From assembly GCF_014696435.1 (NCBI RefSeq), contig NZ_JACJQG010000008.1, positions 1 through 64,000 on the forward strand: 64,000 nt of DNA, read 5' to 3'. The translations under genes were made by a program, and so were the position numbers. Shown piece by piece: positions 5,137 to 33,919 of this stretch. Numbering within the stretch: the first letter of the stretch is position 1; each line of letters starts with the position of its first letter. The notes under the pieces are model-generated. The model was not told the DNA's origin. It saw only the letters and a list, made by a program, of their open reading frames with translations, and did no database searches. The DNA is from Calothrix anomala FACHB-343. GTDB lineage: Bacteria; Cyanobacteriota; Cyanobacteriia; Cyanobacteriales; Nostocaceae.

Positions 5137-7452
5137 TTAAATCCGACTTGCTAGTAAGGCAATAGGGTTAACGGCTCCCTTACCTGCACGATGGATTTCA
5201 AAATGGCTGTGTGGCCCAGTACTGAAACCGGTGCTACCCATTGCCGCAATTGTTTCGCCTTGTCTGACTTGCTGACCTACCTGCACAAATATCTTGCTGT
5301 TGTGACCATAGCGAGTCATGCTGCCATCAGGATGGCGGATGTCTACCAAATTACCGTAGCCGCCGTTGTTCCAGCCTGCTTTTTCGACTACACCATCTGC
5401 TGAGGCGTAAATCGGCGTGCCGGTGGAGTTAGCAACGTCAATCCCTTTGTGCATTCTTCCCCAGCGCCAACCATAACCAGAGGTCAGCACACCTTTTGCC
5501 GGCCAAATATAAGCTGCAGTTGAGGTGGATGGTGGGGGTGTAGCTTCGTCAATTGGCTTAGGTAGATAGCGGTCTACTGCTGATAAGGCTGGTAAGCCAC
5601 TGGGAGAAACTGTAGTTCCCCGCATTTTGCCTAAGGAATCAGAAGCATTAACACCTCTGGGAGGAGTAGCAACTCTTGTAGCTGGGATGTTACGTCCAGG
5701 ATTTTGGTTAGAGAAGAACTCTGGGTTTACTGGCTCAGTAGGCTGCGTCGCCCGATATGCAGGCTTGATGGGTTGGGTGGAATAGTTACCAGTTCCAATG
5801 GGCGCAGGTACAGGAATCTGTACAGAATTCCGTGGTGTAGTCGGGCTAGATACCGCGAAATTACTGGGATTGAGAACAGGAACTGATACAGCCGCAGGAT
5901 TTTTATTTTCGCTGACAGCTGGTGTGACTACGCCTGCTTGTTGGGCACGATATTTTTCCCGCAATCTTTGAATTTCCGCTTGTAAGCTTTGGAGACGCTC
6001 ATTACTTTTAGCGTTGGCTAGCTTCTGCGGTTTTTTGTTCGATTGCATTTCCACAATCACTTTGGGCACTGGAGAATCGCCACCCATACCATAAGAGTTA
6101 TCAGGCTGGGAGTCGGTTTCAGAAACTGCGGTGTTGGTGGAAATCTGATTTTCAGTAGTGACTGGTGTTGGTACGGTCACACTGTTGTTGTTGACGACTG
6201 GTAACTGTGGTGTAGCAGCTACGGTCGGGGTAACAACAGGAGTGTTGACAGGGGATGGTGCTACTGTGGCAGTAACATCAGGCTGTTCTACAATGGGGTT
6301 AGTAGCTTCAGTCGATTGGTTAGCTGTGCTGCTGTCAACCTTAGCGGCAGGAACTACCAATTTTTGACTGATTTGCAGTTGGTTGGGGTTGTTGAGATGA
6401 TTTGTTTGAGCTAATTCTGAAACCGAAGTACCGTACTTTTTAGCGATCGCTGCTAGGGTATCTCCTGGTTTGACTTCGTAGTCCACAGCAGCTGATGGTG
6501 CTGCTGTTTTGATTGTGGGTGCTACGGGTGTAACTACAGGTACATTAGTCGCAGTAGTGGCACTATTAGTGGTACTAGGTCTTGCCTGTTTTAATTTGGA
6601 TATCAGACTAGCTTGACTAGAATTGGTATTGGTTGCTTTTTGCTCTGTTGTAATCTTGCTTGCGTTGAGTTGTGGCGTTTTCTCAACTACAGATTGGTTT
6701 GGAGCTAACTCAGCGTTAGTTGGTGATGAATTTTGGGTCTCCTCAGACCGCAACTCCGCCAGACTTTGTTTTAAACGGTTCGATTTTTCTTGTAAGCGGT
6801 TGAGAGCAAACTCTTGCTGCGCTTTCAACTGTGCAGTTACTTCGCTGTCTGCAGCCTGATTTTCTGTTGCTAGTGGTGTCAGGGATGTAGTTGGCGAGTT
6901 AACTACACTGTTAGCAATAGAAACTTTCTGTAATTGTTTTACTTTGTTGGCTGCTTGCAAACTCTCTATTAGTTGAGGCTGCTGATAGAAAGAACTTGTA
7001 TAAGTTGTTGTGGCTTTAGCTGTTGCATCTGTTGTCGGAACTGGTACAGACACTCCACTGGCTGCAACTTGTAATTTAGCTTCAAGCCCAGGCAGTTGTG
7101 AAATTGCTGTAGGTTCCACGATAACGGGATTTTCCGGCACGCTCACGAATGAGGCGGTTTGGTTCTCCAGCTTTGTGGGGGCAAATTTCATTTCAGTGTC
7201 AGGAACAGCCGGAGTACTTGAGGCTGCCTTTTGACTGCCTACAGGAGCTGCTGCTTGGGCTTGATCGCTTTGTCGAGTCACCAAAAGACTGGTTGCTCCC
7301 ATCGATATTGCCAAGCCAATCATGGCGGCTCTTGTCCCTGCCCGGTGATTTACCCCAGAATTATTCGTGTTTGACTGCTCTACCGGGGCACTATCACTGT
7401 TAGGGGTATTGTTCAGCACAGCCTTCTCTCTCTTTTTCAATGCTCGTTTCAA
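5137..7452 (-). CDS. LysM and M23-peptidase envelope protein (NlpD/EnvC-like)
   Basis: A 771-aa protein with a basic cytoplasmic start, one membrane segment near residues 43-60 (AAMIGLAISMGATSLLV) and a long Thr/Ser/Pro/Gln-rich linker. A LysM domain at about 322-369 (VDYEVKPGDTLAAIAKKYGT) binds peptidoglycan. A short coiled coil is near 475-500. The C-terminal M23 domain (about 650-765) keeps the zinc ligands in HKGID and HSHFEIH, so it may be an active endopeptidase or an amidase activator of the EnvC/NlpD kind. The start is TTG, supported by AGGAGG six bases upstream. A terminator follows 40 bp downstream. Two CRP-like half-palindromes lie 70-105 bp upstream of the start. Confidence 0.88.
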   Translation of the reverse strand: MKRALKKREKAVLNNTPNSDSAPVEQSNTNNSGVNHRAGTRAAMIGLAISMGATSLLVTRQSDQAQAAAPVGSQKAASSTPAVPDTEMKFAPTKLENQTASFVSVPENPVIVEPTAISQLPGLEAKLQVAASGVSVPVPTTDATAKATTTYTSSFYQQPQLIESLQAANKVKQLQKVSIANSVVNSPTTSLTPLATENQAADSEVTAQLKAQQEFALNRLQEKSNRLKQSLAELRSEETQNSSPTNAELAPNQSVVEKTPQLNASKITTEQKATNTNSSQASLISKLKQARPSTTNSATTATNVPVVTPVAPTIKTAAPSAAVDYEVKPGDTLAAIAKKYGTSVSELAQTNHLNNPNQLQISQKLVVPAAKVDSSTANQSTEATNPIVEQPDVTATVAPSPVNTPVVTPTVAATPQLPVVNNNSVTVPTPVTTENQISTNTAVSETDSQPDNSYGMGGDSPVPKVIVEMQSNKKPQKLANAKSNERLQSLQAEIQRLREKYRAQQAGVVTPAVSENKNPAAVSVPVLNPSNFAVSSPTTPRNSVQIPVPAPIGTGNYSTQPIKPAYRATQPTEPVNPEFFSNQNPGRNIPATRVATPPRGVNASDSLGKMRGTTVSPSGLPALSAVDRYLPKPIDEATPPPSTSTAAYIWPAKGVLTSGYGWRWGRMHKGIDVANSTGTPIYASADGVVEKAGWNNGGYGNLVDIRHPDGSMTRYGHNSKIFVQVGQQVRQGETIAAMGSTGFSTGPHSHFEIHRAGKGAVNPIALLASRI

Positions 7453-7519
7453 AGACGACCTCCTATGATCACTAGCGCTTAACTGACCTCAATTGTTTTT
7501 TCAGTCTGATACTAGTCAA

Positions 7520-7556
7520 TGATTTAGATCACATCCGCAGATTGATCGAGATCACA
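7520..7556. promoter_or_regulatory. Two tandem CRP-like sites upstream of the M23 gene
   Basis: TGA-N6-TCACA occurs twice, at 7520-7533 and 7543-7556, with a 23-bp centre spacing (about two helical turns). The CRP-type consensus is TGTGA-N6-TCACA, so each site has one full half and a partial one. The pair lies upstream of the TTG start at 7452. A cyclase gene of CyaC type is in the same window. That these bind a cyanobacterial CRP is inference. Confidence 0.35.
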
Positions 7557-8263
7557 CCCACCAGAGATACTTACGCAAGATTAACCTGCTTCTCTGATTT
7601 AGACAAGTTCACACTCATTAGCAAAACTTAACTTGCTGTGCTGACTTGTCCGTTCCATTCCTCACACCTGAAGATTTTTTGCCGTTTACAGTTGTTTTTA
7701 ACGTTTTTGCTGTTGTAGCTGGGACTGAACCAAAGTATAAGCTTTGTTATGTCCACTTTTGCTGTCAGCAATCGATTCGCTATCACTTCTGAAAAAGCCA
7801 ATCTCCCTGCTGTAGATATCTTCAAGAGATATTTAACCAATCCGTCTACCCAACACGAGACTTTACGTTGATTATTCCCTAAAAGACAACCGTATTATCT
7901 CCCAGCTACTTTTTTCCTTTTGGTAAATCAAGCTTGAGTCAAAAATGACTAAATGCCCTATAAGACTAGGTTTTTGTCCTTTTGTTCCCAAGTTTAGAGA
8001 TAATTGAAATTCATCAAAATCTATCATTCAATTTGCGGATTGACCTGGATTTTAGATACAAATTTCTTATATAAGCTGGCCGAGGTTTGTAAGTATTGTT
8101 TACTCAACTTCGTAAAAGCTTACAGACTCAAGTATAACCATTCACTGGAATTTGGCTGTAACAATCGCTAATATTTGCCCAATTTAGTTAAATCTTTAAA
8201 TTGAGCCAGAGAATTATAGATTTTATTTAAGTATTTCTACTGAAATTTTTCTAGAGCAGAGGT
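7557..8263. other. Spacer without a supported gene
   Basis: About 700 bp of AT-rich DNA between the M23 gene start and the end of trmL. It contains a lone ACTTACGCAAGATTA word (7570) resembling one end of the elements at 39805 and 61583. A 70-codon minus-strand ORF at 7628-7840 has no family resemblance or ribosome site. I see no RNA gene. Confidence 0.5.
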
Positions 8264-8725
8264 TTATTGTAAATAACCCAGTTGGCGACGGGCTTCAAAT
8301 AAGCTGACGGCGACACTCACGGAAAGATTCAAGCTGCGCACGTGAGGTTCTGTCATGGGGATGTAAAGAGTGCGATCGCAAGCGGATATAACTGTTGGTG
8401 GTAAGCCTGTAGTTTCGCTACCATACAGCAGCCAATCATCTGCTTGAAACTGAAATTGGGCATAATTAGCAGTACCTCTGACGGAAAAACCCAATAATCT
8501 CCCACCACGTTGCTGATGCGCGTCTTTAAAGGCTTCTATAGATTCGTGATAGGTGAGTTTAACGTAAGGCCAATAATCTAAACCTGCCCTTTTAAGGTAG
8601 CGATCGCTAATTTCAAACCCTAAAGGACCTACCAAATGTAATTCCGTACCTGTAGCTGCACAAGTACGGGCGATATTGCCTGTATTTGGGGGAATTAGGG
8701 GATTAACTAAAACTACCTGGGGCAT
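8264..8725 (-). CDS. trmL: TrmL, tRNA (cytidine/uridine-34 2'-O)-methyltransferase
   Basis: A 153-aa SPOUT-class methyltransferase that would methylate the 2'-O of the wobble nucleotide in tRNA-Leu using S-adenosylmethionine. It is nearly the whole length of the minimal TrmL family. The trefoil-knot motifs are present: NPLIPPNTGNIARTCAATG at the N-terminus, GSETTGLP, IPM and RSLNLSVSVAV at the C-terminus. It is monocistronic in appearance, 288 bp downstream of gshA on the same strand. Confidence 0.93.
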   Translation of the reverse strand: MPQVVLVNPLIPPNTGNIARTCAATGTELHLVGPLGFEISDRYLKRAGLDYWPYVKLTYHESIEAFKDAHQQRGGRLLGFSVRGTANYAQFQFQADDWLLYGSETTGLPPTVISACDRTLYIPMTEPHVRSLNLSVSVAVSLFEARRQLGYLQ

Positions 8726-9012
8726 TATTCAGTGGTCAGAATGTATTCTCAAAAACAATGTATCACTATGTAACATTCTACCAAAGGAAGAGCAACTATC
8801 TATAGGTTTTGTTAATAATTATCAAGCTCTAGCAAATGATTAGATTTTTAAAACAAAGAAATGTAGCCCTCAAAACATTATTTTGAGAGTTTTATTAACT
8901 CAGCTGAAGGTAATAATAATTTTTTTCTATAACAGCTAGATGCTGCTTACTAGAGGGTTTGTTCCTACCTCCACAAAAATCTACCATTTGCTAGATGTTA
9001 TGGGGTGTAGTG

Positions 9013-10152
9013 CTACACCACTGAGGGGGAACACAATTTATCTTCTAATTCCAGTTCCCGTTCTTGGATAGCAACAATAGCTTGGGAAATCACGCGCTGA
9101 GAATCAAATCCCACGCCGTGTAGCTGTAACCATTGTTGAGCTTCATTTCCTGCGCGGAGAATTTTGTGCAAGGGAGACAGGAAACAACTAAATCCTTGTT
9201 GTTTGGCGATCGCCCAAACATCTTGATACATTTGTTCTATCCAATCTCTAGCGATGATGGTTCTGCCATCTTGCCAATGCTGAAGCGGTGCATCTAAACT
9301 ATTCGCTGCTGCTGCTGCTTCGTTGCTGGCAATTAAATCGAGCAATTCTTCATGAGAAAGTTGACTTTGGGTTAAGGGATCGATTTCTGGGTTTTCTAAG
9401 ATTTGTAACAACCGTGCTTCTAACAAGGCTGTAATGGCGAGTAGAGCCACGGGATCTGTAACTAAATCGCAAATTCTTAATTCTAGCCGATTTAAGTCAT
9501 GGGGACGGCGATCGCCATTTGGGCGTACTGATGCCCACAAATGGCGGACATTTTGCATTGTACCCGCCGCTAGCTGCTCTTCTACCCATTGGATATGATG
9601 GGCGTGGCTGGCAAATAAAGGTACGCGGGCTGGGGTATGGGGAAATAGCCCCCACCGGGTAGAGTGATAGCCAGTGGCTTTACCATCTAAAAAAGGCGAG
9701 GAAGCGCTGAGGGCGAGGAATAAGGGTGCTTCTGCCCGAATTACGCGACAAGCCCGCATTAATAGCTCAGGATCGCTAATACCGACGTTGATATGTACGC
9801 TAGCTGTGACTACTTTTGTGCCGTAGCTGCGCTCAATATAATCGTGATAAGGATTGGTGGGATCGGAACGGAAGAAGCGATCGCTCCTACCCAAAGATAG
9901 GGTACTGCCGGGAATTAAAGTATAATCACCTAATTGCTTGATATATTGGCGCAACTTTTGCCGAGGGCGCACCAAGGCACACAATAGCTGCTCATAACTA
10001 TGTAAAGGTTTAGTTATGTATTCTACGTTGCGGCTATCTGGCTCGCGCACAAATCCGTCTAAAGCCTCGACAATTTTGTCAGAGAGTCCGACAATTTCAC
10101 CTTGAGGTGTGCCAGTGTACATCTCAATTTCAAACCCTTTTGATAAGGTCAC
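9013..10152 (-). CDS. gshA: Glutamate-cysteine ligase, cyanobacterial type
   Basis: A 379-aa enzyme for the first, ATP-dependent step of glutathione synthesis: joining L-glutamate and L-cysteine through the gamma-carboxyl. It matches the cyanobacterial GshA family, which is distinct from the enterobacterial form. Conserved segments include FEIEMYTG, the metal-binding acidic region VEYITKPL, TASVHINVGI, YHSTRWG and RLELRICD. The protein begins right at the catalytic domain, with no extension. It has its own upstream spacer of about 580 bp. Glutathione reductase is encoded at 33.9 kb, so both synthesis and recycling genes are in the window. Confidence 0.93.
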   Translation of the reverse strand: MTLSKGFEIEMYTGTPQGEIVGLSDKIVEALDGFVREPDSRNVEYITKPLHSYEQLLCALVRPRQKLRQYIKQLGDYTLIPGSTLSLGRSDRFFRSDPTNPYHDYIERSYGTKVVTASVHINVGISDPELLMRACRVIRAEAPLFLALSASSPFLDGKATGYHSTRWGLFPHTPARVPLFASHAHHIQWVEEQLAAGTMQNVRHLWASVRPNGDRRPHDLNRLELRICDLVTDPVALLAITALLEARLLQILENPEIDPLTQSQLSHEELLDLIASNEAAAAANSLDAPLQHWQDGRTIIARDWIEQMYQDVWAIAKQQGFSCFLSPLHKILRAGNEAQQWLQLHGVGFDSQRVISQAIVAIQERELELEDKLCSPSVV

Positions 10153-10296
10153 TTTAATCTCCTCGGCTCTCCTAGCCTCTAAATTGTAGCCAATGACACG
10201 ATTTTCTGCATGGATGTAGACACTGAGTTTTCATAGGCGATTTTTCCCAAAAAACCAGTCACCATTAGTATTTCAATGATTTTTTTACCAATCAAG

Positions 10297-10333
10297 AATA
10301 CTAAAGGCATAAATAATTTATGCCCTTAGTATT
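10297..10333. other. Near-perfect 18-bp hairpin in the gshA upstream spacer
   Basis: AATACTAAAGGCATAAAT and its inverse complement are separated by a single base, with one A/C mismatch. It lies about 145 bp upstream of gshA and 400 bp beyond the helicase operon, in a 580-bp spacer (10153-10733) without a gene. No T-run follows on either strand, so it is not a classic terminator. It could be a protein-binding palindrome, an mRNA 5'-leader hairpin or a repeat remnant. Confidence 0.6.
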
Positions 10334-10656
10334 AGGAATTCATTACAAGTAGTACAAACTCCAATTCTTTGGGTAGAGGATGTTACCTGCTGCATGGTAG
10401 ATGAGACATCGGTAATTCCTTCCCTATTTCCCATAACTAGCAAGGATAATTAGAGTTTTTGAACATTAACTGTTGTTAATTAAATAACCTGCATTTTCCG
10501 ATAGAAAATAGCAGTATTAATTGCTGTTAATTTCCTTGAGTGATTGCTTACAAGGGGCTAAAGACCAATTTCGGATAAAGGTTAATAGTTCCCTCTCTTT
10601 TCATATTCTCATAAACTTATACCCATTCTCTATAAACTTTTACTTAACAATTTGTT

Positions 10657-10682
10657 GACGGTTGACTGTTGACGGTTGACAG
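10657..10682. repeat. Heptamer tandem repeat (GTTGACG/GTTGACT)
   Basis: A short run of GTTGACG and GTTGACT heptamers just downstream of the stop of the PLD-like gene. It is the same STRR family as at 2659 and 23269, seen on the other strand. Confidence 0.7.
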
Positions 10683-10733
10683 AGAAGAATTTTTTTGTGG
10701 TTCTTTCACTTTGTACCTTGGCGATTTGTTTGC

Positions 10734-12584
10734 TTAAGCCTTTGTCTTTTTGTTTCTGGTGGAAGGTGCTGCGGCTTTGCGCTTTGTTTTTGGCTGTGAA
10801 GTTTGTTGGGAAATAAATTCGGTAGGTGAATCAGTCTCAGCAGCTATATGAAGCCGGAGAAACTGCGCCCACACTTCATTGTTTAGTAAATTGAGAGCAG
10901 TATCGGGGTTTTGTTGCGCGATCGCACTGAGCAATTGACAGTATGCTAGGCGTAATTGCTCAATAAAAGCTGCTTCTGCTTCTACCTGACTCAGTAATAA
11001 TAGCGATGATTGTAAAATTGGCGAATCATCTGCTAAATTATGGGATTTTAAATTATGAATTACCACGTTTAGATATATTGGCAGTAATTCTAACCAATTA
11101 TTTTTCTGTATTTGGTTCAGTGAGGTTTCTAGCTTACCCAGCGTACCCCAAATACATAAACATTCTCTGGCTAATTGAATATCGCATTTTTCTACAGCTT
11201 GTTGCCATAGTTTTTGGGCATAATTTTGGCAGCGAGTAGATAAAATTTCGTAGGCTTCTTGGATTATCTGGGATTTTTTTACCTGATAAACTAATTCACC
11301 TAATGGTATGTGTGATTCGTGAGAATTGCGCCAGTGATAAAAACCACATTGGTAAATTTCTCGATCTATTATGATTTCTTGAAGATAAACATCTTCTTCT
11401 AAGCCCAAAAGCTGTACTGATGGTAAATCTTCGGGTGTTTTAATCGCTTGGAGTTTTTCTTTGATTTCTAATAAATTTTCTGGTTCCCATTCTAATCCAT
11501 AGCTAATAATTATCGAAACGCCACGCTTTGCTAATGCTTCCAAAGCAGCGATAAATTCGGGGTTTATATTTAAATGATTTAGCCAAGTTGCATAAATAAT
11601 AATTTGTTGCTTGGCTGTATTAATAATTTCTAAAAATTTTTGATTAATTTCGCGATCGCGTAATTGAATTACTTCTTTTTTCTGACTATTACCTAAAGCC
11701 TGTTGGTGAATCTTTTCTAATCTGGCTGCTGTTTCAGCATTTTGATATTTTTTGGCGGCTTCACGCTCAAAATTTAAGCTTTCATTGGGTAATTTACATA
11801 ATGTATCTAAGGATATTTTACCTTCAGATAGCAGTAAGTCTAGCCATTTTGAGCGGGAATCTAACATCTGCTTTCCTCTGCGCAGATGGATAGTTAATTT
11901 CTCCGTAGTTGAATCAAAAATGAGAAATAGAGAGATTTTTCGCCAAATAGTTTGTGTAGAACCTATACTTCTAAAAGCGGTAACAATCTTTCCTGTTTCT
12001 GGTACATGAAGCCCTAAACCTGAAGCTTGGAGATTTTTTTGGACTTGTTCTAAATTGAAAGTAGAAATTAGATTATTTGACTCATTAAGCTGTAAAATAC
12101 TTGTCAAACTGGGGAGATTAATTACTACTTCATTTAATGGTTCGGCTTGAAAGTTTACTGTTTCGCCTAAAGAATCTGCGATCGCATAAATTTGCACAGC
12201 ATAGGGAGGCTGGGGTACTGCGCCTTTATCGTAAAATAATCGCCCTTGTTCGGTAACTGTAATTGGTGATTTTGGGGCGAGTGTTTGTAATTTTTGTAAG
12301 TTTTTAATTGTACTTTGGACAAATACTGGATCTAAACCTAATAAAGATGCTAATTCTTGGGGTGTTGGTGCTGGTTCAAATTCAATTCCTGCACGAATAA
12401 TAAATTCTTCGAGTACGTTAAATGGACGAGGTTCGGTAATTGTTAGTTCTATATTTGTTTGCTGCAAACTATAGCGTAATTGACGGGCGGCGACAACTAA
12501 TAAATCAGGGTTTTGCGTTTCAATTTCTACTACTAGATTTTGCAGACTCTCATCAATTGGTTTAGCTGAAGATGCGAGAAACAT
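10734..12584 (-). CDS. PLD-fold protein with degenerate HKD motif, helicase partner
   Basis: A 616-aa protein I do not recognise by name. The N-terminal region (about 40-115) looks like a winged-helix segment ([23 protein letters not shown]). Around 315-430 it follows the phospholipase D pattern: a helix with [12 protein letters not shown], then [14 protein letters not shown], then [21 protein letters not shown]. In active PLD enzymes the last segment reads H-x-K-x4-D; here His is Tyr and Lys is Gln, so the catalytic motif is lost. The C-terminal third is alpha-helical with a Lys-rich tail ([17 protein letters not shown]). Its start overlaps the helicase gene by 23 nt, so translation is likely coupled. 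I infer a non-catalytic nucleic-acid-binding or regulatory partner. Confidence 0.65.
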
Positions 12585-15500
12585 CTATGAAACCTCCATG
12601 ATGACTGACAATATTAGCAACTTCGGAATACATACTGCCAACTTTACCTGATTGTTGGGTAAATAAATCGTGACAACCGACAATTACTAGTAATTCTTGG
12701 GCGCGAGAAAAGGCGACATTCACCCGTTCTGACTTTTTCGCAAATCCCACATCGCCTTTATTATTATTGCGTACCATACTCACAATTACTACTGGGCGTT
12801 CCATACCTTGAAATCTATCAACTGTACCAGTACGAATTTGTAAGGAAGGGAAAAGTTCTGATTGCAAACGTTCATCAATTTTTCGCAGTTGTGCGCCGTA
12901 AAATGTAATTACAGCTATTTCTTTTTTTGGTTCGCCACAAGCGACTTTTGCAGCCCAAGTATTTTCAAATTGCTGACAGATACGTTCAATTACATCAATT
13001 TCTTGGAGATTATATAAAGAAGTTCCTTCGCGCTGTTCTTGAAATTCAGTTTCTTTGGGCATTTTTACCCAGATTAAATGATGTTGTGGTTGAATAAGTT
13101 CTCCCACTAAATCATGAGCGCGTTTAATATCTGGTTGTAGAATTCCGCATTCTAGTTTACCTTGATAAAATTGATTGATTGCGCCCATAATATGAGGGTG
13201 CATTCGATATTGGGTAGTTAGCATTTGTTTAATGCTAGAATCTGCTTCTTCAAATTGGCTTTTAAATAGTGATTCTTCTAAAAATTGCAATTCTTCTCTG
13301 CTACTGCCAATTTCTTGCACGACTTCCTCTAAAGTATTAGTATCCATCATCGGTGGTAGTTGGCGATGATCGCCTACCATAACTAATTTTTTACCTTTTA
13401 AAGCGGGAATGAGTAATTCTGGTGGGGTACATTTACTAACTTCATCGATGATGACAACATCGAAGGATTGAAATTCTTCGGAAAAATCTCGTCCGGCTGC
13501 TTGCACACAAGTGATACCAACGACGTTACAATTGTCTAAATAGATTTGTCTTAAATCGTTGCGATCGCGTTCTGAAGGGTTACGGACTTTTGCAATCCAA
13601 TCTTGGATAAAGCCTTGATATTTTTGCAGATGGTTTTCATCTTGATTGAGTTGCTGTTCTCCTGACTCAAACTGATTTTTGATGCTGCGTAAAAATTCTA
13701 AATCGTATAAGTTAGGCTGGGGAGATTTAGGCTTAAATTTATCTTGTAAAATTTGCCATTCTCTTTCCCACCATTGGCGCTGGGATAATAAAGTATCTGG
13801 TGGTTGGGGTTGATTTCTTTCAGCTAATTCAGCTATTTTGATTTTTAAAGTTTCAAGCTGTTGCTGAAAAATTGTAATTTCTGCTGCTACGGTTGCTAGT
13901 TGTTCTTCTAAAGAAATTTGAATATTCGTTAATATAGCGAAAGGTTCGATAGATGAAATTAAATTTTCTAACTGGCTGAGATGATTTATCCAAGTATGTA
14001 CATGCTGGGAAAATTCTTGAGGATGTTCCCAAATTTTAGCTTGATTTGCTAGATATTTTTCTGCTAAAGTCCGCAATTGATTGGGTACGTTTGACTGTTG
14101 ATTTAGTTCTTGTAAGATATTAATTGCTCTTTCGAGTTTTAGATTAGCATCTTGTCTCGCTGTTTCTATCTGGGTTTGAGTATTTAATATTTGAGTTTGG
14201 GCGACTTCATTGTTATGCAGTTCGTTTAGCTGTGCTTGCAGATGTTGCAGTTGTTTTTCTGCTTCAGTTTTGACTTGGAAAACGCACTGACGCGCATTAG
14301 TTAAGATAATATCTATCAGTTCTTGAGTAATTTTATTCAGAGTAGATTGGCTATTATTAGCTTCCCAGACATTGCTATAAGTTTGTTGGATTCTCTGGAT
14401 AAAAATCCGCGTGGTTTCGACTAGAGTTTTACGCTGATTGATTTCGAGATATTGATAGTTATTAAATTGTGTATGGATTGCTTGCCATTGAATGATATCG
14501 CTATTTTCTAATACTAGCGGAATTTGGCTAAAATTTTGCTGTAAAAAGTAGCTAAAACTATGCTGTCTACCTTTTCTATCGGTAAAATTACCTTCTATTT
14601 CATAAGCTATAGCTTTTGTCAATAGCTCCCAATCTGGTAGATTAACTATATAGTTAGCTGGCATCAAAGATATTTTTTGCGAATTAGCCAGCGTCAGTAA
14701 TTCTGGTGGTAATTGTAGCAAATCTACTGTTAATAATTGGGAAGTTTGGCGAGAATTGGCTAAAATTTCCGCCACGCGATGATTGGCTGTAGATTTCCAT
14801 TCTTTAACAGCGTTGATGATTGCTTCGATTTCTTGCTTGCGAGTTTCCCAAGTTTGAATTGTTTGTTGTAGACTTTGCTGTTTACTAAAGAATTGTTGAT
14901 GATTTTTTTCTAATTGCTGTAAATTGTGCGAATGTTGTTTAAAAACTTCTACTGCGGCTGCTACTTCTAACATCGCTACAGTTGCACTTTGGGCGTAAAT
15001 TAAGGCGGTTCTAAAGTCTGGAATTCCTGAAACTACAGTTTCTCTTAACCATACAGCTAACCCAAAAGCACCGCATTGAGGGCGAAGTAAACCGAGTCCA
15101 TCGGTTAAGCTGATGGCTTTACTGACATTAAGTAAAAAGGTTTTAACTAAATGATTATTTTCTGTATAAGGTTTAAGATGGGGTAAAAAATTAGTAACTT
15201 CTGGTGCTTCCCAATTAACGATATTTGGGGCTTTGAGGAGATTTTCTAATCCAGATATGAGAGTTTCAATTTGATTTTTTTTCGCTACAGCTTCCTGATA
15301 AAGTGCTTCTTGCTTGTTAACGTTAGTCTCTAATTTTGGTAAACGTTGATTTACATCCTGTTGACTCTGTTGAAATTCTGCTTCTGCTTGAAAGTAAGCA
15401 TTAAATTTAGATACTGAGGCGAGTAATTGACGGTAAAATTCTACATTTTCACGGCGTTTACTGAGATTTGTTTCACAATCATTGGCGGTATTTTCTAACC

Positions 15501-17064
15501 AAGTACCGATTACTTGATCTTCTAAAAAAGGCTGTCCTTCTTCGCCTACTTTTTCAGCGCGTCCTTTACGTATCGCCCGAATTACGGGATTATGGACTAA
15601 ACGACTGAGGGCGTTATCTACTGCTAAATTTGCTTGAGAGGCGATGAGAGTCCGCCCACCTCGTAATGCAATTTGATAGCAAATTTCGGCAATGACAGTG
15701 GTTTTACCTGTGCCTGGCGGCCCTTGAATTAAAACTAAATCTTCGGCGGAAAGTACGGTTTCTACTGCTGCTTTTTGACCGGGATTTGCAGTAGATAATA
15801 ATAATTCTTCTGGTTCTAATTCTACAGTTTTTTGAATTGGTCTAGCTTGGGAAGCATCGAATAAAAAATTACCTAAATAAGGATTTTGGGTACGTCCATT
15901 ATTTAAATCGTCTAAGGCTTTTTTCTTACGTTGAATTTGTTTAATATCACCCAAAGCTTCAAAACATAAAAAGCCGGTGGTGGGAAGTTGATAACGTCCG
16001 CTAGTTAGATAATCAGCTAACTCTCGTTCTAGGTTGAGGCTAATTGTGCCGCGTTTTTGGTCAATTTCTTCAATGGAACCTATTAACCGCCCTTCTTGCC
16101 AATTTCTACCAGTAGGTGCAGTTTCAAATAGTTTTAAATCGTCGTTTTTCGCTTTTCTTACCCTTCCCCAAAAATTGTCTTCATCTAAAGGATTTTCGGG
16201 GGAACCGTCTAGAGTCGCTGAGGTAATATCAATTTCAAAACTGATGCGTCTTTTAAAGTTGTAGTGATATCTGGTATAAGAAATACAGAATTGGCGTGCT
16301 TGCGCAATTTTTTCTTCAATTTGTAGAAACGCTTTCCAAGCTTTGAGTTGTTCTTCTGTGGGTATATAGTCACCACAAACCGGGGCTTCGGCTATGCGGG
16401 GAAAGACTGAGGAAGGAATGCCGATATGATGCTCGTGATTGGGTAACAGGCGTAAGTTAAAGGGTACGGCGTAAGCATCAGATTGTCCCCGTGAGATGGG
16501 GAGTAAGTAGACGGAGAGTAGCTTTAAACCGGTGTCGCTATTTTGTTGAACTGCAGCTTTAAATGCTAGAGTTTTACCGAGTTTTTGCAGTCTGCTTGGT
16601 AATTTACTTTCTGGGGAGTCTGTGGCGATGATTAATTCCCAAATTTCTTCTTTTGCCGCTTTCCCCGCACCTTTACGCCGGATGTAAAATAAACAAGGTC
16701 TTTGTCCGACACATTCATACAATAATTCATGGGCGTATTCTCGGCGTTCCCCAAATTCGGGATATGCTTTGAGGGTGGATGCGTCTTCGAGATGGCGGAT
16801 TAAGTTATCAACTGTCGAACCTACGAATATGTAACCCCAATCTTCGGAGGCTTTTTTTAGCCGGGAGGAATTTGCAGGGAGGGAGGCAACTTTTGCTGCT
16901 GGTGGTTTGGCGGCTTTGCGAACTCTTTCCGCCTCGAATTCGGAGATGGTGCTGCTGGGGCTTTTGGCGGTAATGTTGAGTTGATCGCAAATTACTAGTA
17001 GCTTTTTGCTGTCTAGTTTTAGTTCGCTTGCTAGTTCGTAGATTCTGACTTTAGTTTTGTTCAT
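12562..17064 (-). CDS. UPF1-like SF1 helicase (COG1112 type) with IF2_N-like N-terminus
   Basis: A 1500-aa ATPase. Residues 5-55 match the IF-2 N-terminal fold ([20 protein letters not shown]), unusual for a helicase. Walker [10 protein letters not shown] is near 447, and Walker [10 protein letters not shown] near 1205. Later motifs are [23 protein letters not shown] and VNVAFSRA. About 750 residues, largely coiled coil, separate motifs I and II, far more than in typical UPF1-like enzymes. The fold predicts RNA or DNA unwinding or translocation. It is the first gene of an operon with a PLD-fold protein (23-nt overlap). Pairing of a COG1112 helicase with a PLD protein is the layout of the Mokosh anti-phage system, but the kinase domain of MkoA is absent. 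Defence is inference; a housekeeping RNA role is possible. Confidence 0.85.
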
Positions 17065-17149: not shown

Positions 17150-18067
17150 TTAGAGTTTGTATTGTTGGTACACTTCGCTAGCGGCGCGATGTATTAGGGA
17201 GTGTCGCCAGACGAGGGAGTTTAAGTCATCGGCGTAACCGCCACCGATGACGCAGGCGACGGGGTAACCGGCGCTGACGCAGGTGGTTAAAACTTGCATT
17301 TCGCGACGGAAAATGCCAGTGTCGGTTAATGCTAATTTTCCCAGGCGATCGCCTATATGAGGATCTACACCAGCATCATAAAATACTATATCTGGTTGGA
17401 CTTGGGATAATAAATCTGGTAAGTAATTGGCTAAGGTTTGTAAATAAGCGTCATCTTCCATTCCCACTGGTAGGGGTACGTCTAAATCGCTTTGCTGTTT
17501 GGTACCGGGAAAGTTGACTTCGCAATGCATTGAAAAGGTAAATACGCTGTCGTCGTCTTGGAATATAAACGCTGTACCGTCGCCTTGATGGACATCTAAA
17601 TCTACTATTAAGATTTTTTGCGCTAGTCCAAGTTTTTGTAATACGCGAGATGCGATCGCTAAATCGTTGAAAATACAAAAACCAGATCCATAATCAGGAA
17701 AGGCGTGGTGTGTTCCACCGGCTGTATTGCAAGCTAAACCATGAGTCAGTGCTAATTGGGCAGTGAGTATTGTACCACCAACCGCTACACAGGTACGATT
17801 CGCTAATGCTGGACTCCAAGGTAAGCCAATCCGCCGTTGTGCTTTTGCATCTAAGGTTCCCTGACAGTAAGCTTGGACATAATCGCTACTGTGAACTAAC
17901 TCTATCAATTCTGCTGGTGGTGCTTGCGGTGTGTGAAATTGTTCGATTTGCGCTACTCCATCGGCTAGTAACAATTCGTATAGTTGGCGGAACTTTAACA
18001 TCGGGAAGCGATGTCCTGGAGGTAAGGGCGCAATATAATCTGGGTGATAAATAATTGGTAAGTACAT
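17150..18067 (-). CDS. Histone-deacetylase-family (acetoin utilisation AcuC-like) hydrolase
   Basis: A zinc-dependent deacetylase of about 305 aa in the arginase/deacetylase fold. Motifs: GGTHHAF (two active-site His), GFCIFNDLAIA, the zinc ligands in VDLDVHQGDGTA, then YDAGVDPH, and CVIGGGYA near the end. In bacteria such enzymes act on acetylated proteins or polyamines; the substrate here is not evident. I start at ATG 18067. A further nine codons upstream (MPNAPCPTT) are translated ATGCCCA-type intergenic repeat and are unlikely to be native. It follows the helicase gene with 85 bp between them but has its own upstream repeat-rich spacer. Confidence 0.88.
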   Translation of the reverse strand: MYLPIIYHPDYIAPLPPGHRFPMLKFRQLYELLLADGVAQIEQFHTPQAPPAELIELVHSSDYVQAYCQGTLDAKAQRRIGLPWSPALANRTCVAVGGTILTAQLALTHGLACNTAGGTHHAFPDYGSGFCIFNDLAIASRVLQKLGLAQKILIVDLDVHQGDGTAFIFQDDDSVFTFSMHCEVNFPGTKQQSDLDVPLPVGMEDDAYLQTLANYLPDLLSQVQPDIVFYDAGVDPHIGDRLGKLALTDTGIFRREMQVLTTCVSAGYPVACVIGGGYADDLNSLVWRHSLIHRAASEVYQQYKL

Positions 18068-18360
18068 TGTAGTGGGGCATGGGGCATTGGGCATTGGGCA
18101 TGATTTAGTTGTTATTCATTTACTTGTCCCATTTTCTGTCCCTCATCGCCGAGTCACTTAGAAAACTAGTCATCACGGTAGGGTTATGTAAATTGGTCGA
18201 AATCAACCTAAATATATTACGAAACGTAAATAAATTTAAAATCATTAACAATGACTAATGACTATATTCACAAAGGTTGAAAACCTAGCCCGCAAGTGGC
18301 ACGGAAAAATCGTTGTTTACCAAGTTAGGTTGTAACCCTATCCACAAGGGGTGGCTGTCT

Positions 18361-25258: not shown

Positions 25259-28200
25259 ATGACAAAGTACCAGTATCAAGTCGGGGGAAGTTTGCCCCAA
25301 GATGCACCAACTTATGTCAGACGACAAGCTGACGATGACATCTATGCAGGCTTGACGCAGGGTGAGTTTTGTTATGTCCTCAATTCGCGGCAGATGGGCA
25401 AGTCTAGTTTGCGGGTGCAGGTGATGCGGCGCTTACAAGATGAGGGGTTTGCCTGTGCTGCTATTGATATTACCGCGATCGGGACAGCAGATATTACCCC
25501 AGAACAGTGGTATGCGGGGGTAATTGATAGCTTGGTGGGAAGTTTGAATCTTTATACCAGCTTTGATTTAGAAACTTGGTGGACTGAGAACGGTTTGCTG
25601 TCGCCTGTGCAGCGTTTGAGTAAGTTTCTGGAAACGGTATTACTCAAAATAATTACTGAGAAGATAGTAATTTTTATTGACGAAATCGACAGTATTCTCA
25701 GTCTTGCGTTCAACCTTGATGATTTTTTTGCCGTAATTCGCGACTGCTATAACCGCAGAGCCACCCATGCTGATTATAATCGCCTGACTTTTGCTTTGAT
25801 TGGGGTGTCTACCCCCTCAGATTTAATTCAAGATAAACAACGCACTCCTTTTAATATTGGGCGGGCAATTGATTTAACTGGTTTTCAATTGCATGAAGCG
25901 GAACCTTTAGCGCGGGGTTTGGCGGCGGTGGGCGATTCTGGGGAATTGATGCAGGCGGTGTTGGCTTGGACAGGGGGACAGCCGTTTTTGACGCAGAAGG
26001 TTTGTAAGTTAGTAGTGGGGGAAGGAGGCAGGGGGCAGGGGGCAGGGAGCAGGGGGCAGGGGGCAGGGAGCAGGGGGCAGGGAGCAGGGGGACAAGGAGA
26101 AGAAGAATCTAAAATCCAAAATCCAAAATCCAAAATTGAATTGTGGGTTGAGGATTTGGTGAGGCGGCGGATTATTGAGAATTGGGAGGCGCAGGATGAG
26201 CCGGAGCATTTGAAGACGATTCGCGACAGGATTATGGCGAGGGGGGAAGAGAGGACTGGCAGGTTGTTGGCGTTGTGTCAGCAGATTGCGCAGCAGGGGG
26301 AAATTGCGGCTGATGATAGTGCTGAACAAACGGAGTTGCGGTTAACCGGATTGGTGGTGAAGCGGGATGGGAAGCTGCGAATTTATAACCGGATTTATGC
26401 TGAGGTATTTAAGCAAGAATGGAGTGAAAAGCTTTTGGCAAAGCTGCGCCCCTATTCTGATGCTTTTAATGCTTGGGTGGAGTCGCAACAACAAGATGAG
26501 TCGCGGTTATTGCGGGGAAAGACTTTGCAGGATGCTCAAGAATGGGCGACGGGTAAAAGTTTAAGCGATTTGGATTATCGGTTTTTGGCTGCTAGTCAGG
26601 AATTAGAAAAGCGCGATGTGCAAAGGCGTTTGGAAACTGAAGAACAGGCGAAGCAAGTTTTGGCAGAGGCGAACCGCAAAGCTAATCGGCGGATTCAAGT
26701 TGGTTCTGTGGTGCTGGGTTTGGCGGTGGTGGGGGCGGTAGCATCGTTAATGTTGGCTCAATATCAATTAGGGCAAGCACGAGTAGCTGATGAAGAGCGA
26801 AAAATTGCTTTAAAGGCTACCAAATTAGAACAAGATGGCACAAATGCGTTGCGAGTGTTTGATACTTCAGGGGAAATAAAGGGTTTGCTGTTAGCAATGC
26901 AGGCAGTAAAAACCTTAAAAACTTTGGTCAAGGATAAACAACCTTTAGCAGAATATCCGGCATACAGCCCTTTGTTTAATTTACAGAAAATTGTATTTGA
27001 TATTCGCGAACAAAATAGTTTAGAAAAGCATACCGATTCGGTCAACAGCGTCGTCTTCAGCCCCGATGGCAAAACTTTAGCTTCCGCCAGTGGTGACAAC
27101 ACCATCAAATTGTGGAATCGGGACACGGGCAAAGAAATTTCCACCATGACTGGGCATAGCGATTGGGTCAACAGCGTCGTCTTCAGCCCCGATGGCAAAA
27201 CTTTAGCTTCCGCCAGTGGTGACAACACCATCAAATTGTGGAATCGGGAGACGGGCAAAGAAATTTCCACCATGACTGGGCATAGCGATTGGGTCAACAG
27301 CGTCGTCTTCAGCCCCGATGGCAAAACTTTAGCTTCCGCCAGTGTTGACAACACCATCAAATTGTGGAATCGGGAGACGGGCAAAGAAATTTCCACCATG
27401 ACTGGGCATAGCGATTCGGTCATCAGCGTCGTCTTCAGCCCCGATGGCAAAACTTTAGCTTCCGCCAGTGGTGACAACACCATCAAATTGTGGAATCGGG
27501 ACACAGGCAAAGAAATTTCCACCATGACTGGGCATAGCGATTCGGTCATCAGCGTCGTCTTCAGCCCCGATGGCAAAACTTTAGCTTCCGCCAGTGGTGA
27601 CAAGACCATCAAATTGTGGAATCGGGAGACGGGCAAAGAAATTTCCACCATGACTGGGCATAGCGATTCGGTCAGAAGCGTCGTCTTCAGCCCCGATGGC
27701 AAAACTTTAGCTTCCGCCAGTGGTGACAAGACCATCAAATTGTGGAATCGGGAGACGGGCAAAGAAATTTCCACCATGACTGGGCATAGCGATTCGGTCA
27801 GAAGCGTCGTCTTCAGCCCCGATGGCAAAACTTTAGCTTCCGCCAGTGGTGACAAGACCATCAAATTGTGGAATCGGGAGACGGGCAAAGAAATTTCCAC
27901 CATGACTGGGCATAGCGATTCGGTCAACAGCGTCGTCTTCAGCCCCGATGGCAAAACTTTAGCTTCCGCCAGTGGTGACAACACCATCAAATTGTGGAAT
28001 CGGGAGACGGGCAAAGAAATTTCCACCATGACTGGGCATAGCGATTGGGTCAACAGCGTCGTCTTCAGCCCCGATGGCAAAACTTTAGCTTCCGCCAGTG
28101 TTGACAACACCATCAAATTGTGGAATCGGGAGACGGGCAAAGAAATTTCCACCATGACTGGGCATAGCGCACCTGTCAACAGCGTCGTCTTCAGCCCCGA

Positions 28201-28348
28201 TGGCAAAACTTTAGCTTCCGCCAGTCTTGACAACACCATCAAATTGTGGAATCTGAGTCTTGATGATTTATTAGCGCAGGGTTGCAGTTGGCTGAAGGTT
28301 TATTTTATTACCCATCCTGATGAGGCGAAGGTGTGTCAGGGGAGGTAG
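25259..28348 (+). CDS. AAA-like ATPase with C-terminal WD40 propeller(s)
   Basis: A 1029-aa protein. Residues 1-255 are an AAA-like P-loop domain: Walker A NSRQMGKSS, Walker B IVIFIDEIDS, and the family's VGGSLPQDAPTYVRRQADD start. A Gly/Gln/Ser-rich insert (about 257-293) is encoded by intergenic-type repeats. Then come a helical region, a membrane segment near 483-503 (VGSVVLGLAVVGAVASLML), and ten WD40 repeats of exactly 42 aa (about 595-1000). The repeats are nearly identical and differ at a few positions (DS/DW/AP; N/I/R; G/V/L; N/K). The layout, nucleotide switch plus propeller, resembles STAND-type signalling proteins. The ligand is unknown. Confidence 0.88.
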   Translation: MTKYQYQVGGSLPQDAPTYVRRQADDDIYAGLTQGEFCYVLNSRQMGKSSLRVQVMRRLQDEGFACAAIDITAIGTADITPEQWYAGVIDSLVGSLNLYTSFDLETWWTENGLLSPVQRLSKFLETVLLKIITEKIVIFIDEIDSILSLAFNLDDFFAVIRDCYNRRATHADYNRLTFALIGVSTPSDLIQDKQRTPFNIGRAIDLTGFQLHEAEPLARGLAAVGDSGELMQAVLAWTGGQPFLTQKVCKLVVGEGGRGQGAGSRGQGAGSRGQGAGGQGEEESKIQNPKSKIELWVEDLVRRRIIENWEAQDEPEHLKTIRDRIMARGEERTGRLLALCQQIAQQGEIAADDSAEQTELRLTGLVVKRDGKLRIYNRIYAEVFKQEWSEKLLAKLRPYSDAFNAWVESQQQDESRLLRGKTLQDAQEWATGKSLSDLDYRFLAASQELEKRDVQRRLETEEQAKQVLAEANRKANRRIQVGSVVLGLAVVGAVASLMLAQYQLGQARVADEERKIALKATKLEQDGTNALRVFDTSGEIKGLLLAMQAVKTLKTLVKDKQPLAEYPAYSPLFNLQKIVFDIREQNSLEKHTDSVNSVVFSPDGKTLASASGDNTIKLWNRDTGKEISTMTGHSDWVNSVVFSPDGKTLASASGDNTIKLWNRETGKEISTMTGHSDWVNSVVFSPDGKTLASASVDNTIKLWNRETGKEISTMTGHSDSVISVVFSPDGKTLASASGDNTIKLWNRDTGKEISTMTGHSDSVISVVFSPDGKTLASASGDKTIKLWNRETGKEISTMTGHSDSVRSVVFSPDGKTLASASGDKTIKLWNRETGKEISTMTGHSDSVRSVVFSPDGKTLASASGDKTIKLWNRETGKEISTMTGHSDSVNSVVFSPDGKTLASASGDNTIKLWNRETGKEISTMTGHSDWVNSVVFSPDGKTLASASVDNTIKLWNRETGKEISTMTGHSAPVNSVVFSPDGKTLASASLDNTIKLWNLSLDDLLAQGCSWLKVYFITHPDEAKVCQGR
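26027..26137. repeat. Intergenic-type repeats inside the AAA-WD40 gene
   Basis: Tandem GGGGGCAGGGAGCA words are followed by AAAATCC heptamers (three copies). Both word types are otherwise found only in spacers (for example 29888-29918 and 39720-39755). Here they are in frame and encode a GRGQGAGS-type linker plus a short KIQNPKSKI tail between the AAA domain and the helical region. Confidence 0.85.
27041..28256 (+). repeat. Ten 126-bp WD40-coding repeats
   Basis: The phrase GTCAACAGCGTCGTCTTCAG and its GTCATC/GTCAGA variants recur every 126 bp from 27041, ten times. Most units differ by only a few bases, silent sites included, so the array expanded or was homogenised recently. The minus strand is also open across it. 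Confidence 0.92.
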
Positions 28349-32127: not shown

Positions 32128-33708
32128 ATGTTGCCTAAATTTTTCCCACTTTTAGCAATCAGTTTATGGGGAGTTGTAGTGTTACCTTGGTCACAACCAG
32201 TAAATGCAGCTACACCCTTGACAAGAGCAGAAATTAGAGATCTGCGAAACTTAGTCCAGCTAATTCCTAAAAATAGTCCTAAGAGGCGTCCAGCACGCAA
32301 ATTAGATCCCATGACTCCTGGTGATGGATTATCTACAGGACGCGCATCCTTAGCAGATTTACGCTTTAACGATGGTTCTTTAGCGAGAGTTGGGGAACAG
32401 GCGATATTTCGGTTTTTACCGAAAACTCGTAATTTTCGCTTATCTAATGGCACAGTTTTACTGCTGATTCCCCCAGGAAGGGGACAAACACGGATTCACA
32501 CACCAAATGCAGCTGCTGCAATTCGCGGTTCAGCATTATTTGTCCGCTACGACGAAGCTACGGATACCACAATCGTGGGTGCATTGACAAATAGTGGTAT
32601 AGAAGTATCTAACAAGCATTCTCAAGGTAGGGTACTAGAAGCTGGACAACTGATGGTAATTGTCAAAGACAAAATCCAAGGGTTGTACGATTTTGATTTA
32701 AGAACTTTTTATGAAACTAGCGATTTAGTCAGAGGGCTGGATTTAACTAGACAAAATCTTGCACCAACTCCCGATCCTGCGATCGCTAGCGTTCAAGCTG
32801 AAACATCAGCCGCCCTAGCTACACAAACCCCAATAGCTAAGGGTGACGGAGTCCTAGAAAATCCATCATTCTTACAGCTAACAGCCACGTCTTCATCAGA
32901 AGCTGAATCTTCAGCCAGCAACGATGACGAAAATACCAGCACTAGCAGTAGCAATCAAGAGGAAGCTAGCGTCAACCCAAGTCAAGAGAATCTGAATGTA
33001 GACTCTCTTGTGGACACAGGGGAAGTCCAAGTAACTGGGCAGTTAGGTAACAATACTAACAATACTAATAACAATAGTATAAATATTCCTCAACAACCTC
33101 AGCCCAATAACAACCCAGGCAATAACACCGGGAACAACCCAGGTAATAACACCGGGAACGACCCAGGCAATAACACCAATAACAACCCAGGTAATAACAC
33201 CGGGAACAACCCAGGTAATAACACCGGGAACGACCCAGGCAATAACACCGGGAACGACCCAGGTAATAACACCGGGAACAACCCAGGTAATAACACCGGG
33301 AACGACCCAGGCAATAACACCGGGAACAACCCAGGTAATAACACCGGGAACGACCCAGGTAATAACACCGGGAACGACCCAGGTAATAACACCGGGAACA
33401 ACCCAGGCAATAACACCGGGAACGACCCAGGTAATAACACCGGGAACAACCCAGGTAATAACACCGGGAACGACCCAGGTAATAACACCGGGAACAACCC
33501 AGGCAATAACACCGGGAACGACCCAGGCAATAACACCGGGAACAACCCAGGTAATAACACCGGGAACGACCCAGGCAATAACACCGGGAACGACCCAGGC
33601 AATAACACCGGGAACGACCCAGGCAATAACACCGGGAACGACCCAGGCAATAACACCGGGAACGGCGGACAACCTGATTTACCTGAAGACGACAGACCAA
33701 GCACATAA
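32128..33708 (+). CDS. Exported FecR-domain protein with Asn/Gly/Pro minisatellite tail
   Basis: A 526-aa protein. It has a signal peptide (about 1-27, ending QPVNAA), then a FecR domain at about 60-190 (DGLSTGRASLADLRFNDGSLARV, IHTPNAAAAIRGSALFVRYD, GQLMVIVKD). In FecR itself this domain senses and transmits a signal in the periplasm, but here there is no sigma factor nearby and no transmembrane segment beyond the signal, so a structural or polysaccharide-linked role is as likely. The C-terminal 190 residues are about 23 copies of an 8-residue unit P-G-N-N-T-G-N-(N/D). It is divergent from the outer-membrane barrel gene. Confidence 0.8.
   Translation: MLPKFFPLLAISLWGVVVLPWSQPVNAATPLTRAEIRDLRNLVQLIPKNSPKRRPARKLDPMTPGDGLSTGRASLADLRFNDGSLARVGEQAIFRFLPKTRNFRLSNGTVLLLIPPGRGQTRIHTPNAAAAIRGSALFVRYDEATDTTIVGALTNSGIEVSNKHSQGRVLEAGQLMVIVKDKIQGLYDFDLRTFYETSDLVRGLDLTRQNLAPTPDPAIASVQAETSAALATQTPIAKGDGVLENPSFLQLTATSSSEAESSASNDDENTSTSSSNQEEASVNPSQENLNVDSLVDTGEVQVTGQLGNNTNNTNNNSINIPQQPQPNNNPGNNTGNNPGNNTGNDPGNNTNNNPGNNTGNNPGNNTGNDPGNNTGNDPGNNTGNNPGNNTGNDPGNNTGNNPGNNTGNDPGNNTGNDPGNNTGNNPGNNTGNDPGNNTGNNPGNNTGNDPGNNTGNNPGNNTGNDPGNNTGNNPGNNTGNDPGNNTGNDPGNNTGNDPGNNTGNDPGNNTGNGGQPDLPEDDRPST
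33112..33663 (+). repeat. 24-bp minisatellite in the FecR gene
   Basis: About 23 units of CCAGG(C/T)AATAACACCGGGAAC plus AAC or GAC. Units differ almost only at two sites: AAC versus GAC (Asn/Asp) and GGC versus GGT (silent). No frame on either strand contains a stop, which gives long false minus-strand ORFs. Confidence 0.92.
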
Positions 33709-33919
33709 ACATGAAATCAAAGGTGTAACCAGCGAGGAAAGCAGTCTAATACTGCTTTTCAAAGCAAAGTCCCCTTAGTCCCCATAAAAGCATCTGCTAA
33801 GGCTAGATTAAATCAAGAAAGGAAATTACTGAGGTTGCTAAATTATCTTTTGTACTCCAATCTAATCTGCCTTGTAAGTCTTCAGAAGCTTAATTGTTGC
33901 GACAGAAATAGAGAAATTT

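Follow-up and report, generated by a model that had tools for sequence, protein, structure and literature searches.

A probable Mokosh relative that lacks a kinase and swaps effectors, likely disarmed at a chromosomal site in Calothrix anomala

The 64,000-nucleotide stretch of Calothrix anomala FACHB-343 analysed here (contig NZ_JACJQG010000008.1, positions 1 to 64,000; hereafter the window) carries on its minus strand a gene for a UPF1-like superfamily 1 (SF1) helicase that overlaps a gene for a phospholipase D (PLD)-like partner. This locus raises the question of whether the pair belongs with the Mokosh anti-phage systems, as an earlier note on this DNA had proposed in the form of a related but distinct type, and whether the window copy still serves defence. 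Our comparisons with defence-system models and with homologous loci favour, with reasonable probability, a kinase-less, effector-swapping relative of Mokosh that has been disarmed in the window. That the family is Mokosh-like and derived from defence is very likely; an anti-phage function of the window copy today has slightly less than an even chance.

The helicase-partner pair and its match to Mokosh

The earlier note had described a 1500-amino-acid (aa) UPF1-like helicase and a second protein encoded on one strand with a 23-nucleotide (nt) overlap, and the coordinates (overlap of the two open reading frames (ORFs) at 12562-12584), domains and motifs agree with that description (Table 1). In searches with the PADLOC models, MkoA and MkoB were the top matches of the two proteins, the helicase matching MkoA with 387 bits (E 4.8e-116) and a second MkoA model with an E-value of 1.1e-103, and the partner matching MkoB with 69 bits (E 1.1e-19) over profile positions 16-380 of 610. 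In hhalign, the partner family aligned to one MkoB of the kinase type, from Pseudanabaena, with a probability of 97.7 (E 2e-12), the alignment covering window aa 26-425, that is, the winged-helix and PLD parts, and running through the HKD motif. As a yardstick, these models gave 719 and 223 bits for a plasmid-borne Pseudanabaena pair of the kinase type, and a lone UPF1-like helicase adjoining a paralogous pair in the C. anomala genome scored 190 bits with the MkoA model. The PLD assignment would be weak from the window copy alone, because it scored only 13 bits against PLDc_2, for which the cut-off is 27; two intact homologues reached 28.6 bits (L038) and, slightly below the cut-off, 26.7 bits (L153). 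Together, these data bear out the relation to Mokosh and suggest that the second protein is indeed PLD-related.

Could an unrelated UPF1-like helicase simply lie beside a PLD-like gene by chance? MkoA models also match other UPF1-like helicases and the window PLD falls below the Pfam cut-off, both of which would fit. In a phylum sample, however, the helicase (E<=1e-80) was found in 40 of 386 genomes and the identical 40 hold the N-terminal half of the partner (E<=1e-6), on which ground chance neighbours were rejected. Moreover, both genes lie on the same strand in 76 of the 86 family loci, with profile matches that overlap or are <=60 nt apart in 63, and the MkoB match spans two thirds of the protein, so that chance adjacency is extremely improbable.

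The helicase carries AAA_12 (PF13087, 7.1e-50) and AAA_11 (PF13086, 1.5e-39) domains as well as intact motifs GPPGTGKT (448), DEVS (1207), GDHRQLPP (1231), QYRMHP (1285), TVDRFQGME (1414) and RVNVAFSRA (1447), which we take to be SF1 motifs, and by sequence its closest PDB relatives are SMUBP-2, UPF1 and DNA2. No kinase was found in it among the best 25 of 32 Pfam families, down to an E-value of 0.11; MkoA of the Pseudanabaena control has a PF00069 kinase (2.6e-39). The distinct type proposed earlier had been argued from an IF2_N-like N-terminus replacing the kinase and from a degenerate PLD motif. The part concerning the kinase stood, and both positive markers were rejected. IF2_N (aa 5-50; 5.8e-8, exceeding the Pfam cut-off) occurs in only 20 of 81 helicase-bearing loci and changed twice on the helicase tree (both helicase trees being quick trees with long-branch warnings), and the degenerate motif occurs in only two of 31 copies. 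On this distribution IF2_N is a lineage add-on. Elsewhere in this genome IF2_N was found only as two copies, both in a single frame of 1054 aa that is interpreted as InfB; helicase aa 1-61 share 62% identity with this frame. The RecG-like stretch at aa 807-914 (NF008170, 1.5e-13; 38% identity across 89 aa with an 851-aa frame from the same genome) is present in 56 of the 81 loci. The N-terminal region of about aa 66-235 is seen in members with and without IF2_N, shortened in some, and remains without a name because a profile of aa 66-476 picked up nothing in known helicases beyond their Walker A region. In the helicases of L058, L060 and L062, a long N-terminal extension, alignable among all three, replaces IF2_N. 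About 1 to 7 kb lie between the helicase and partner genes at L050 (10168-12109), L140 (7643-10283), L150 (5596-12726) and L151 (10797-11802).

Interchangeable C-terminal effectors of the partner

At the sequence level, the partner effector is interchangeable, being a PLD, a DarT, a nameless third domain or none, and every one of these classes was found with the shared N-terminal half. Class proportions were taken only from the phylum sample, where 42 copies in 40 genomes comprise 22 without a PLD, 16 with one (counting the window copy with its apparently dead domain), one with DarT, one partial and two broken. The full effector table held 87 rows, reduced to 86 family loci by removal of the control L129; the duplicates L128 and L205 were dropped, the short class includes the broken L064 (PLD in another frame) and L189 (internal deletion), and the broken or cut L061, L065 and L194 stand outside the table. 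The partner was detected in 114 of 388 genomes of the order, and the 20 regions later added from partner-bearing genomes were picked partly for odd partner length. Among the first batch of loci, 24 have short partners, and none of these retrieved regions showed a PLD frame. Ratios of nonsynonymous to synonymous substitution rates (dN/dS) of 0.18-0.34 in nine pairs, some with common members, indicate that the PLD-less copies are constrained, and the effector state changed at least eight times on the helicase tree. At L059, a xisH gene (13425-13847; PF08814, 8e-55) lies directly downstream of a PLD-less partner.

DarT partners were found at five loci (Table 1); on L126 the NCBIfam DarT model gave only 0.0034, well under its cut-off. 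An ADP-ribosylglycohydrolase gene comes next after the DarT partner at all of these loci except L186, and at L126, L207 and L208 the helicase, MkoB-DarT and ADP-ribosylglycohydrolase genes lie between pglX and pglZ of BREX. A third C-terminus of about 200 aa was found in the partners of L185 (9866-11335), L188 (7968-9386) and L206 (10001-11425; partner aa 290-474) and is cut short in L187. Neither Pfam nor NCBIfam named it, nor did PADLOC, which was applied to L206 only, and it is predicted to be a candidate toxic effector. The helicases of the DarT and unknown-domain loci form one clade (support 100/100), in which L063 (DarT) stands among the unknown-domain rows. Forcing the DarT rows together was rejected (approximately unbiased test, p-AU 0.0019, for a group named after the tree had been seen), and forcing the unknown-domain rows together was not (p 0.197), which would fit more than one history of swaps.

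Relatives on plasmids and beside defence genes are armed. The paralogous pair in the same genome (G000 C2, L038), which is 48% and 41% identical to the window proteins, retains H-K-D, and among its neighbours one gene matches the DruE and ZorE models and another, of UvrD type, matches GajB models. Its helicase was found in two of nine genus genomes. A second, shorter UPF1-like helicase (877 aa; L038 4835-7468) lies divergent to this pair, as also in L039 and on plasmid AP018308.1 (L127), and a close relative of the paralog together with such a second helicase is carried on an Aulosira laxa plasmid typed as conjugative. In addition, hsdR and toxin-antitoxin genes adjoin a pair carried by a plasmid of Cyanobacterium sp. 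The check for pairs in defence islands, suggested in the earlier note, thus showed defence genes next to several relatives and the own-genome paralog, and not next to the window copy.

A degenerate PLD at a fixed chromosomal site

The HKD catalytic motif is a feature of the PLD superfamily. It was rightly called degenerate in the window copy, and the H-K-D residues are retained in 29 of 31 aligned PLD-bearing copies, the exceptions being the window and its sister L040 (Y and Q for H and K), the helicases of which are 97% identical. These replacements make it highly likely that the window PLD is catalytically inactive. Between the window and L040, dN/dS was 0.09 for the helicase, 0.17 for the partner N-terminal half, 0.24 for the C-terminus and 0.35 for the PLD, the last based on 14 and 10 changes only. 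Rapid PLD evolution is not special to the dead pair, because intact PLDs gave 0.26 to 0.75 in five other chromosomal pairs; the single tested paralog pair gave 0.19. Several of the pairs compared have members in common and rest on few changes. When the partner alignment was searched as a profile against the PDB, only two chance-level matches came back. Taken with the many PLD-less copies, the dN/dS values suggest that the PLD has been repeatedly lost in the window lineage and that the helicase and the partner are still constrained. A locus heading for loss, like the multi-frame pseudogene of G021 and the remnant of G013, would likewise show lost catalytic residues, a PLD dN/dS above that of the helicase and broken copies in relatives. 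Decay is nevertheless quite improbable for the window copy, in which both frames are open and the helicase and the partner N-terminal half keep their low ratios against a sister sharing the motif loss.

In many family members the pair lies between a histone-deacetylase-family (HDAC) gene and gshA-trmL, and in the g27 clade (a genus code) with its kin, as well as in non-family members, it lies mostly at other sites. The helicase (E<=1e-50) was found in 9/9 genus genomes, in 14/26 others of the family and in 3/24 from other families of the order. Helicase distances correlate with gshA distances (r 0.76, reached by 0/2000 permutations) in the 29 loci where both genes occur, and the two trees have 13 of 26 splits in common (chance mean 0.15, maximum 2). 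In the phylum sample, 30 of the 43 family genomes have the helicase, two as broken copies, and 13 do not. From this sample and the genus and family survey together, 20 helicase-less family genomes were hand-picked; all 20 hold gshA with no piece of either pair gene around it, and in eight an HDAC match (one partial) lies <=500 bp from gshA. In G170 (L161, L162) the helicase and the partner are both open and 1.3 Mb apart, each adjoining one usual neighbour. Universal, syntenic presence with a core-gene phylogeny had been named as grounds for giving up the defence reading; synteny and a gshA-like tree were largely found, and universality was not. The window lineage combines an HDAC-gshA chromosomal site, mostly vertical inheritance and patchy absence, a pattern that matches a core gene as little as it does a typical island gene. 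At L197 (2515-19998), in a genome of another family, two tandem helicase-partner pairs lie between gshA and an HDAC match that is cut off at the end of that stretch, which may make the site older than the family.

These results bear directly on a domesticated housekeeping factor, according to which the chromosomal pair no longer belongs to defence and works in the metabolism of RNA or DNA, hence the repeated loss or inactivation of the nuclease under strong constraint on the helicase. The HDAC-gshA site, the gshA-like helicase tree, the low helicase dN/dS, the helicase in every genus genome and the absence of a PLD from 22 of 42 copies all agree with it. Against this, the pair is dispensable, because the helicase is missing from 13 of 43 family genomes, absentees have clean gshA surroundings and the copies in G021 and G013 are broken; we consider this explanation possible, though doubtful. 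If the window pair were instead still active against phages, the PLD would serve as a structural scaffold and the damage would be done by the helicase or a host nuclease. This alternative would be in keeping with intact helicase motifs, dN/dS below 1 in every part and relatives in or beside defence genes. Among the 37 other window ORFs of >=120 aa, however, the 14 scanned with Pfam and NCBIfam yielded no named defence family (PADLOC was not applied to those), and we consider this alternative rather unlikely.

Several points weigh against our preferred reading of a disarmed Mokosh relative, beyond the breadth of the MkoA models. The degenerate PLD is under some constraint and may do something besides hydrolysis. 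UvrD helicases are broadly matched by GajB models, so the paralog island rests mainly on the DruE/ZorE-like matches. The remaining 13 of 26 splits disagree with gshA, and some transfer or tree error may lie behind them. The L060 helicase has no partner within 20 kb, and the L193 partner frame is only 150 aa long. Moreover, the closest neighbours of the window copy are of housekeeping type and its helicase tree resembles that of a core gene, which fits a house role equally; the sequence of the window copy would fit either defence or house.

Under the reading of a disarmed Mokosh relative, the UPF1-like helicase would sense or open foreign nucleic acid as a sensor or motor, the partner would dock on it via the conserved N-terminal half, as pairing and overlap suggest, and the C-terminal effector would attack the nucleic acid exposed by the helicase. 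DarT members would need the glycohydrolase for self-protection. In the window, the helicase and the N-terminal part of the partner most likely work without a nuclease of their own, because the PLD has lost its catalytic H and K, which would leave a surveillance unit. We give about even weight to the wider proposal that the helicase and the MkoB N-terminal half form a sensing platform that takes a PLD, a DarT with its immunity gene or a third effector, and that Nostocaceae chromosomes hold a long-kept, disarmed and domesticated immune helicase beside armed copies.

One paper describes viral transcripts as degraded by Mokosh (PMC11291487), and a later review of 2026 lists the mechanism as unknown (PMC12926258). 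The effector swap would narrow that mechanism: if PLD and DarT can replace each other on one partner, sensing falls to the helicase-partner core and execution to the C-terminus, with nucleic acid that the helicase exposes as the probable target. DarT modifies single-stranded DNA, which points to helicase action that makes single-stranded DNA. Natural PLD-less, dead-PLD and DarT forms separate sensing from killing, and the chromosomal lineage would offer a case in which to follow an immune system as it turns into a house gene.

Table 1 Features of the window and DarT-bearing partners at other loci
Sequence	Feature	Position	Strand	Remark
Window	MkoB-like partner, 616 aa	10734..12584	-	overlaps helicase gene by 23 nt
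Window	Partner, conserved N-terminal half	11691..12584	-	winged-helix-like by weak helix-turn-helix matches, plus further sequence
Window	Partner, PLD domain with degenerate catalytic motif	11115..11693	-	alignment with homologues
Window	Partner, degenerate HKD motif	11340..11387	-	Y400 for H, Q402 for K, D407 retained, GF for GS
Window	Partner, C-terminal region past PLD, aa 451-616	10737..11234	-	without named domain
Window	UPF1-like SF1 helicase, MkoA-related	12562..17064	-	1500 aa; kinase not found (scope in text)
Window	Helicase, IF2_N domain, aa 5-50	16915..17052	-	Pfam
Window	Helicase, N-terminal region, ~aa 66-235	16360..16869	-	without named domain
Window	Helicase, first half of core, Walker A, ~aa 426-530	15475..15789	-	domain and motif matches
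Window	Helicase, RecG N-terminal-like stretch, aa 807-914	14323..14646	-	inside long insert, motifs I to II
Window	Helicase, motifs II-VI, ~aa 1190-1477	12634..13497	-	domain and motif matches
Window	HDAC-family gene	17150..18094	-	fixed-site marker
Window	gshA	9013..10152	-	fixed-site marker, opposite side
Window	trmL	8264..8725	-	next conserved neighbour
L063, Oscillatoriaceae metagenome-assembled genome	DarT partner			PF14487, 2.3e-18
L126, plasmid pC052_C, Nostoc sp. C052	DarT partner	8001-14749 (helicase, partner and glycohydrolase genes)		PF14487, 9.2e-16
L186, genome G686	DarT partner			PF14487, 6.9e-21
L207, Nostoc mirabile	DarT partner, split frame	6247-13160 (helicase, partner and glycohydrolase genes)		match to L063 domain
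L208, Anabaenopsis elenkinii chromosome	DarT partner	5903-13043 (helicase, partner and glycohydrolase genes)		match to L063 domain

Elsewhere in the window, positions 40475-44008 encode a 1177-aa sensor kinase that combines GAF, receiver and guanylate-cyclase domains. Long open frames at 26764-28242 and 33043-33712 run antisense to a WD40 gene and a FecR-domain gene, respectively, and are probably composition effects.

Comparison with known systems

The window helicase has its core in common with UPF1, SMUBP-2 and DNA2 helicases and differs from them in its N-terminal region, its insert and its partner; MkoA itself is assigned to the SF1 Upf1 subfamily in PMC10925250. The paralog partner weakly resembles DrmC of DISARM in its PLD (1.9e-4), whereas the N-terminal half here is MkoB-like; DISARM genes had no dedicated search.

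MkoC of Mokosh type II is a helicase and a PLD fused in one protein. It matches the window helicase (1.7e-30) and the paralog partner (3.1e-11), and the two differ in that here there are two ORFs rather than one fusion. A protein kinase domain is typical of MkoA of Mokosh type I and may define the type. With this type the pair has in common the MkoA match, the MkoB match including the PLD region, and the organization as a two-gene unit of adjacent, same-strand genes for a UPF1-like helicase and a winged-helix/PLD partner, the latter collinear with kinase-type MkoB. In contrast, a kinase was not found on the MkoA-like protein, IF2_N is optional, a long insert with an optional RecG-like stretch is present, and the partner effector is swappable or absent. 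The window copy differs further in being chromosomal and mostly vertically inherited and, together with L040, in having lost the intact HKD motif. Whether the kinase defines type I is unsure, because a review table in PMC10952713 gives a NERD domain for it and the second MkoA model, in its best stretch, aligns with the Pseudanabaena control only from model position 660 onward.

DarTG pairs a stand-alone toxin with an antitoxin, DarG, that is a macrodomain protein. The DarT variant of the present family has in common with it a DarT domain and a neighbour from a family that removes ADP-ribose. The neighbour here, in contrast, belongs to the ADP-ribosylglycohydrolase family (PF03747 at L063 and L126). 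Within the open-licence PMC literature searched, the one paper found to mention both Mokosh and DarT tabulates them as separate systems. In the loci described above, DarT instead forms a fusion with the N-terminal half of the MkoB-like partner and is linked to a helicase.

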